NCBI GenBank assembly: GCA_009911715.1
Contig: CP047880.1
Coordinates: forward strand, 930,001-994,000
From: Methanomassiliicoccaceae archaeon DOK
Lineage (GTDB): Archaea; Thermoplasmatota; Thermoplasmata; Methanomassiliicoccales; Methanomethylophilaceae
DNA: 64,000 bases
Direction: 5' to 3'
Part shown: in pieces, positions 46,519-48,138 of the stretch
Position numbering within the stretch: position 1 is the first letter of the stretch
Layout of the letters: the number at the start of each line of letters is the position of its first letter
Program-made: the position numbers and the translations under genes
The notes under the pieces: model-generated
Database searches by the model: none
Seen by the model: the letters and a program-made list of their open reading frames with translations, nothing else
What the model was told of the DNA's origin: nothing

Positions 46519-46637
46519 ATATTGATAAAAAGGTTGAGATAGGGAAGATGGGGCAGGCACCTGAAGGCGAGGGCCCACCGTCAGATTACCCATCCTCGGC
46601 ATCCAGCCATCCCGGTCCGACGATGGTTCGGATCCAT

Positions 46638-46894
46638 GTCGGACATGTCCGACACGTAAGACGGATGACGTAAGACGTCGCTGTAAGACGCGGTAAGACG
46701 CGTCCGACTAGAACACATTTATCTACATCCGAAGCATACATCTTCATCGAAGACGAGTCTCTTCGCAGACACTTGTCCCGATTCAAGCATCCGTCTGACA
46801 GAGAAATGAGCCGGAAACAGTGATTTCCGACGGAAAATCTCTGTCAGACGTGTGTCTTACTTTTGTCGGACAAGCTTTAAATATCACGTAAGAC
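46638..46894. promoter_or_regulatory. Repeat- and dyad-rich control region of the RHH-ftsZ locus
   Basis: It contains a perfect palindrome GTCGGACATGTCCGAC (46638-46653). Four direct copies of GTAAGACG follow (46656-46663, 46670-46677, 46683-46690, 46693-46700), then an inverted GTCTTAC (46854-46860), a GTCGGACA half-palindrome (46865-46872) and GTAAGAC (46888-46894). The last three bracket the TATA-like CTTTAAATAT (46875-46884) of the ribbon-helix-helix gene. The arrangement fits cooperative binding and autoregulation by a ribbon-helix-helix protein. Confidence 0.6.
46791..46850. repeat. 13-bp perfect inverted repeat with nested hairpin
   Basis: CGTCTGACAGAGA (46791-46803) pairs perfectly with TCTCTGTCAGACG (46838-46850). 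Between them CGGAAA-CAGTGA-TTTCCG (46812-46829) makes a second stem. If transcribed it would be a stable 60-nt RNA; if not, it is a large operator. A TATA-like CACATTTATCTAC at about 46713-46725 could start an RNA at about 46745. Confidence 0.65.
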
Positions 46895-46958
46895 ATAATC
46901 TTGATTGCAAGCGGGAAGGGATGGGAAAAACTCTCTCTTGCAACAGGAAAGGATGGAA

Positions 46959-47321: not shown

Positions 47322-47433
47322 AGAAAAAAGGGATGGGAAATCGCATCCGTCAGCCGGATGGGAACGGCCACGGCCGAGGCTGATGGATGCTATTCAAACA
47401 CCTTAACGAAAGACGAGATCGAAGCAACGGGTG

Positions 47434-48138
47434 ATGCACATGACAGGGAACGACATTGAAATCGCGGTCGAGCCGCGCATAGCGGTCGTCGGCGTGGGCG
47501 GTGCGGGATGCAACGTCGTCAGCGCTTTCAGCGATTCGCTCTGCGCAGTGGACACCATCGCGATCAACACTGACAAGGACGCCCTCCACAAGACGGATGC
47601 GGACACCAAGATCTACATCTGCAAGGAGGTCCTGAAGGGCGAGGGAGCCCACGGGGACACCGTCCTCGGGAAGAAGTGCGCCGACATCCACAAGGAGGAG
47701 ATCAGGCAGGCACTCTCCGGACATGATGTCGTGTTCGTCATCGCGGGTCTCGGAGGCGGAACCGGAACAGGTGCCGCATCCGTCGTCATCGACGCTGCCA
47801 GGTCTCAGGGAATACTCACATTCGCCGTCGCGATCAGCCCCTTCTCCTTCGAGGGAAGGCGCAAGGAGATCGCCAGAGAGGGCTACAGGCACATCAGGGC
47901 CGTCTGCGAGCACACGATTCTCGTGGACAACGACCTGGTCCTCGCCAGGATGCCCGACCTCACCATGGACCGCGCCTTCGGCGAGGTCAACAAGAGCATC
48001 ATGAGGCACGTCATGGACTGCGTCGCAGCTGTCGAGGAGACGTTCGTGGACGAGATCTCCAGGCAGAGGCCGGTCAAGACCACAAGGGAGACCTCCAAGA
48101 AGGAGAAGTACCCCATAGAGCTCCTCATCAGCGCTTGA
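47434..48138 (+). CDS. ftsZ: Truncated FtsZ-family GTPase (GTP-binding domain only)
   Basis: This 234-residue tubulin-superfamily protein has loop T1 VGVGGAGCN (about 19-27), T2 AINTD (43-47), T4 GGGTGTG (107-113) and T5 SPFSFEGRR (135-143). The H7 helix is NDLVLARMPDLTMDRAFGEVNKSIM. It then ends in a basic tail (RQRPVKTTRETSKKEKYPIELLISA). The T7 loop (usually NxDxAD), which completes the GTPase site of the next subunit, and the C-terminal domain are missing. Two terminator hairpins follow, so it is not a frameshifted full gene. It may bind GTP, cap or regulate a full-length FtsZ. Start ATG 47434 or GTG 47431. Confidence 0.82.
   Translation: MHMTGNDIEIAVEPRIAVVGVGGAGCNVVSAFSDSLCAVDTIAINTDKDALHKTDADTKIYICKEVLKGEGAHGDTVLGKKCADIHKEEIRQALSGHDVVFVIAGLGGGTGTGAASVVIDAARSQGILTFAVAISPFSFEGRRKEIAREGYRHIRAVCEHTILVDNDLVLARMPDLTMDRAFGEVNKSIMRHVMDCVAAVEETFVDEISRQRPVKTTRETSKKEKYPIELLISA

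Follow-up and report, generated by a model that had tools for sequence, protein, structure and literature searches.

Phased operator-like sites and a conserved small RNA as probable controls of an archaeal RHH-ftsZ cell division operon

Phased tandem short sites are typical of ribbon-helix-helix (RHH) proteins such as MetJ, Arc and CopG. In haloarchaea, a small RHH gene, cdrS, lies directly 5' of ftsZ in one transcription unit, and this arrangement is reported to be widely conserved in archaea (PMC7439475). Post-transcriptional control has been suspected for the Halobacterium cdrS-ftsZ2 operon, with no regulator named in the accessible text of that report (PMC8303175). In Escherichia coli, the RNAs DicF (PMC5069750) and StfZ (PMC9628754) are directed at ftsZ mRNA.

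The window analyzed here, 64 kb in length, comprises bases 930001-994000 of a one-contig archaeal genome of 1.89 Mb, whose close named relatives are Methanomethylophilaceae/UBA71 metagenome-assembled genomes in the order Methanomassiliicoccales, phylum Thermoplasmatota. It contains a group of short repeats flanked upstream by a divergent leuS gene and followed on the 3' side by genes for a 120-aa RHH protein, an ftsZ homologue, and nicotinate phosphoribosyltransferase. As in the cdrS-ftsZ2 operon, the RHH gene is immediately 5' of ftsZ and co-directional with it, and the same order is found in other orders of the phylum, where our statements rest on the kinship labels of the genomes. The protein differs from the Halobacterium CdrS in having two RHH domains in 120 aa rather than a single unit in 55 aa (PMC7439475), and the ftsZ product carries the GTPase domain only, unlike FtsZ2, which has GTPase and C-terminal domains. 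Neither a phased operator around the TATA box nor a small RNA (sRNA) layer is described for cdrS-ftsZ2 in the portions of the literature available. The features of the locus, in window coordinates except for the last, are as follows.

46615..46621, plus strand: outlying GTMNGAC site (GTCCGAC), from the motif count
46638..46708, plus strand: putative distal operator array, the only such cluster in the genome, with GTCGGAC at 46638, GTCCGAC at 46647, GTAAGAC at 46656, 46670, 46683 and 46693, and GTCCGAC at 46702
46718..46725, plus strand: TATA-like element TTTATCTA, a possible second promoter, read from ortholog sequences
46792..46850, plus strand: 13-bp perfect inverted repeat, its arms containing GTCTGAC (46793) and GTCAGAC (46843)
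46854..46860, minus strand: putative operator site at -22 from the TATA box
46865..46871, plus strand: putative operator site GTCGGAC at -11 from the TATA box
46876..46883, plus strand: TATA box TTTAAATA of the RHH-ftsZ operon, conserved in orthologs
46888..46894, plus strand: putative operator site GTAAGAC at +12 from the TATA box
46905..46943, plus strand: leader hairpin TTGCAAG/CTTGCAA presenting the sRNA match
46915..46926, plus strand: GAAGGGATGGGA in the RHH leader, 12 nt perfectly complementary to the sRNA loop
46959..47321, plus strand: tandem RHH regulator gene, 120 aa
47328..47338, plus strand: AAGGGATGGGA in the RHH-ftsZ spacer, a second sRNA match of 11 nt
47343..47390, plus strand: spacer hairpin GCATCCGTCAGCC/GGCTGATGGATGC, with GGATGGGA (47356-47363) unpaired
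47433..47439, plus strand: GATGCAC, also complementary to the sRNA, just before the ftsZ start
47440..48138, plus strand: ftsZ homologue, GTPase domain only, 235-aa open reading frame
1,080,360-1,080,440 of the genome, minus strand, outside the window: unannotated candidate sRNA gene beside srp54 (loci L135 and L068)

The regulator had been described in an earlier note simply as an RHH protein; its sequence supports that family, and the protein is more precisely one with two RHH domains. It aligns as two RHH units, of which the second is degenerate and RHH-like by alignment, and the predicted helices fit two units. A profile built from the order matched NikR over its first part and ParD-type antidotes over its second when compared with PDB profiles (E values of 6e-4 and 0.002). 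With PF01402, the window protein scored 19.5 bits, just below the cut-off of 20.5, and a relative from the order passed at 21.0; PF17723 (RHH_8) weakly spans residues 7 to 106. An AlphaFold model showed the expected helices, with a pTM of 0.35 for a monomer of a fold that is normally dimeric, and a Foldseek search with this monomer gave several weak matches that were RHH proteins, none of them significant. The RHH alignment is very diverse and offered no stretch usable for a peptide search. TraY, a tandem-RHH protein, provides a likeness. The protein is not classed here as CdrS; its position before ftsZ is the same, and its role is likely to be the same. In the 235-aa FtsZ homologue, the PF00091 GTPase domain was the only domain found and the C-terminal domain is absent. 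The ftsZ open reading frames of several other members of the genus are about 230 to 270 aa long, compared with about 370 aa for FtsZ in other orders. The genome also has a highly divergent second tubulin/FtsZ-like gene, which adjoins ribosomal stalk protein genes (L075, genome position 39529).

Upstream of the RHH gene, GTAAGACG occurs on the plus strand at 46656, 46670, 46683 and 46693, GTAAGAC recurs in inverted orientation at 46854 and directly at 46888, and the palindrome GTCGGACATGTCCGAC occupies 46638-46653, with GTCGGACA at 46865; all of these positions are exactly those first recorded. Within the 64 kb there are five copies of GTAAGACG against 1.14 expected, a count reached by no shuffle. 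Across the whole 1.89-Mb genome, two GTAAGAC copies within 25 bp are found only here, as is an exact copy of the 16-bp palindrome. The direct repeat and the palindrome, originally taken as separate motifs, are both real, and GTAAGAC, GTCGGAC and GTCCGAC are all spellings of one degenerate site, GTMNGAC. The original tally was consequently an undercount: its copies are all present, and GTMNGAC occurs 13 times in 46610-46895, compared with 0.32 expected per 280 bp; the second-ranking 280-bp stretch in the window has three. Elsewhere in the genome, neighboring pairs of GTMNGAC sites lie within coding sequence. A search for the motif at other division genes had been suggested as a check; it did not turn up at a second division gene in this genome. 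At genome position 310544 (L072), an intergenic GTCAGACA is followed by an A+T-rich TATA-like stretch and may be a further RHH target.

Conservation of the motif in relatives, set beforehand as one of the tests on which the operator reading could fail, was found. RHH orthologs are present in 56 of 60 relatives, and every word of the form abcNdef was counted in 260-bp upstream regions from 47 of the order's orthologous RHH genes. The two top-ranked words were GTA.GAC (94 occurrences versus 4.9 expected) and GTC.GAC (64 versus 2.1). Outside the genus, GTA.GAC alone still occurred 44 times against 1.2 expected, and outside the genus or family it is mostly GTATGAC. Relative to the TATA box, the sites cluster at about -33, -22, -11, +12 and +23, with 99 of the 119 sites near the TATA box falling in five phased windows that cover 24 of 101 positions. 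A period of 10.75 bp fits best, with sites on either side of the TATA box, which is flanked by the most conserved ones, at -11 and +12. In other orders, GTCAGAC lies 3' of the TATA box in all 12 RHH-ftsZ promoters inspected. This phasing of about 10.75 bp places the sites on one face of the helix, straddling the TATA box, a layout that favors repression by promoter blocking.

Tandem short sites one helical turn apart and RHH domains are shared with repressors of the MetJ, Arc, CopG and NikR type, from which the present system differs in its archaeal TATA promoter, its GTMNGAC site, and its two RHH domains per chain. These promoter sequences are best explained by autoregulation through the adjacent RHH protein, and the repeats are very probably a self-control switch of this cell division operon. 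RHH units would bind GTMNGAC on one helix face at about -33, -22, -11, +12 and +23 and block assembly of the transcription complex at the TATA box. The proposal of an autoregulatory operator array agrees with the conservation, phasing and near-exclusive location of the sites; what had been drawn as a single array is two. In this clade, the distal array probably acts likewise at the upstream TATA-like element, which is similarly placed in L003, L004 and L006-L009 and reads TATATCTA in L005. A strong RNA fold is predicted for 46743-46870 (z of -4.9); its 13-bp perfect stem lies in the stretch that separates the distal TATA-like element from the main promoter.

The third-ranked word in the same upstream regions, GGA.GGG, derives from the conserved leader element GAAGGGATGGGA, which lies in a hairpin. 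A further copy of this motif in the genome, AAGGGATGGGATGCAC, is found beside srp54, approximately 100 kb from and unlinked to the operon, which lies at about 976.6-978.1 kb. With at most one mismatch, this 16-mer is present in 56 of 60 relatives and in all 42 near-complete ones; the reversed control gave 0. At 48 of 51 stand-alone loci, a TATA box stands at a fixed distance on the strand complementary to AAGGGATGGGATGCAC, compared with 5 of 51 for the same window on the strand reading AAGGGATGGGATGCAC. The side of the TATA box indicates that the transcript would carry GUGCAUCCCAUCCCUUCU, the antisense of the mRNA element, with a start predicted roughly 28 nt before GTGCATCCC. Transcription of the srp54-side element with GAAGGGATGGGA as the sense sequence was ruled out by the location of the TATA box on the other strand.

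The sRNA of this genome is predicted to form a hairpin that presents the seed in its loop, and a C-rich loop of 19 nt is invariant in 38 aligned sRNA loci. The inner stem covaries, with 42 double-change cells versus 14.5 in shuffles and far lower values for slid structures. When 58 loci were put through a cruder helix test, the difference was only small (8.1 versus 6.7), and RNAalifold returned no consensus structure for the full sRNA alignment, so that the structural support is that of the inner stem. A covariance model detected the sRNA in 168 of 292 phylum genomes, including many other Thermoplasmatota families, and had no match among the genomes listed for families f7-f10, which belong to the same class. 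Rfam 15 gave no match to the sRNA loci and nothing relevant for the operon, and the literature searched, with partial coverage, held no description of such an sRNA in this order or phylum. At the level of sequence, the locus has the marks of a trans-acting sRNA: a predicted promoter of its own, an unlinked position, and a predicted unpaired, conserved seed complementary to its targets.

The motif matched by the sRNA is present in the RHH-ftsZ spacer across the order as well as in the leader. Of 42 genomes, 38 have at least 10 nt of perfect complementarity to the sRNA in the RHH leader or the spacer and 4 have no such match; the corresponding number is 0 for far-upstream DNA, 1 for the opposite strand and 7 for the RHH coding sequence. 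Predicted duplex energies in this genome are only modestly stronger than those of shuffles (-40.6 versus -29.0, standard deviation 4.3, for the leader; -51.2 versus -43.2, standard deviation 4.9, for the spacer). GATGCAC precedes ftsZ at 12 of 24 scorable loci, a supporting count only, as the script missed several starts. Genomic matches to AGGGATGGGA mostly look like chance matches in coding sequence.

Across the phylum, 204 of 292 genomes contain the complement GGGATGGGATGCAC (0 for the reversed control). Twenty further copies were fetched from other orders, chosen as absent from the listed covariance model matches: a small RHH gene and ftsZ flank 14 of them, 2 immediately follow other RHH genes, and another is a copy of the sRNA itself. 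All seven genomes with both partners have a two-segment pairing, of 14 to 20 nt plus 10 to 11 nt, flanking a hairpin. The second segment was reached by at most 1 in 500 shuffles, and in most of the seven genomes it holds AACTACCAG, immediately 5' of the ftsZ Shine-Dalgarno sequence. Families f2-f6 have a second small RHH gene, and in 19 of 23 genomes, judged by position, the motif closely follows the stop codon of that gene; family f1, to which this genome belongs, is without a clear copy of that gene. In L163-L172, L183, L184, L186, L188, L190 and L192, the complement just 3' of the stop codon of the second RHH gene is followed by T-rich sequence. A small gene for an unknown protein in L173, L176 and L182 has a leader with paired GTMNGAC sites 11 bp apart and the sRNA complement; these leaders, in three genomes, provide an independent link between the two layers.

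We consider it likely that an ancient trans-acting sRNA pairs with RHH-ftsZ mRNA and sets FtsZ levels post-transcriptionally, alongside transcriptional autoregulation by the RHH protein, and that in one order a second RHH gene is an additional target, through its 3' region. The unlinked sRNA would be made beside srp54 and expose its C-rich apical loop, which would pair with GAAGGGAUGGGA(UGCAC) in the operon leader and in the spacer before ftsZ. Such pairing, which would most likely mask or remodel the region before the ftsZ ribosome-binding site, would alter the translation or stability of ftsZ and perhaps of the RHH message. Like DicF and StfZ, this sRNA appears to be directed at ftsZ mRNA; unlike them, it is archaeal, chromosomal, spread over many families of a phylum, predicted to pair with an RHH-ftsZ spacer, and without an Rfam match. 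The control suspected for Halobacterium is consistent with this model and is not evidence for it (PMC8303175).

Several other explanations bear on the DNA sites. Chance or compositional clustering without function might be suspected from the shortness of the words and the high G+C content of the genome, but it is contradicted by the enrichment, uniqueness, conservation and helical phasing of the sites and can be practically dismissed. It is improbable, though worth weighing, that GTMNGAC is bound by a different regulator, either a second RHH protein or an unrelated factor, while the adjacent RHH protein acts elsewhere. Families f2-f6 do have a candidate in their second small RHH gene, whereas family f1 keeps the sites without a clear gene of that kind, and phased tandem sites favor an RHH binder. 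In Halobacterium, CdrL is the protein that reproducibly binds upstream of cdrS-ftsZ2 (PMC7439475), which would fit a different binder. Activation, with the RHH protein bound, for instance, at the distal array and bringing in the transcription machinery, is about as unlikely. That array is well upstream, and the Haloferax CdrS motifs lie mostly 41 to 110 nt upstream of transcription starts, which fits activation (PMC8406309); the most conserved sites here, however, are at -11 and +12, positions that TBP/TFB and polymerase have to occupy.

The RNA layer could be explained differently if the GGGATGGGA elements and the hairpin RNA were sites or decoys for an RNA-binding protein and did not pair with each other, leaving only the operator reading intact. 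In both the leader and the spacer, the G-rich motif sits in the loop or bulge of a hairpin, and the pairing is short in this genome (12 and 11 nt). Yet the motif appears as one strand in the mRNA and as the other in the hairpin RNA, which a single protein motif cannot explain, and beyond the order the long complement comes with the separate second segment in every genome that has both partners; we regard this explanation as slightly more doubtful than either a different binder or activation. The combination of an RHH autoregulatory operator with an sRNA acting on RHH-ftsZ mRNA is, as a whole, the account that we hold with good confidence.

On the largely open question of how FtsZ amount and timing are set in archaea, the operator provides a sequence-level, testable model of autoregulation for the RHH-ftsZ operon in an order of methanogens, and the sRNA is a concrete candidate for a post-transcriptional regulator in a phylum other than that of Halobacterium. 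Seed and target are both unusually deeply conserved, which makes a direct mutational test possible. Cell division in these organisms looks to be controlled at two levels, those of transcription and mRNA.
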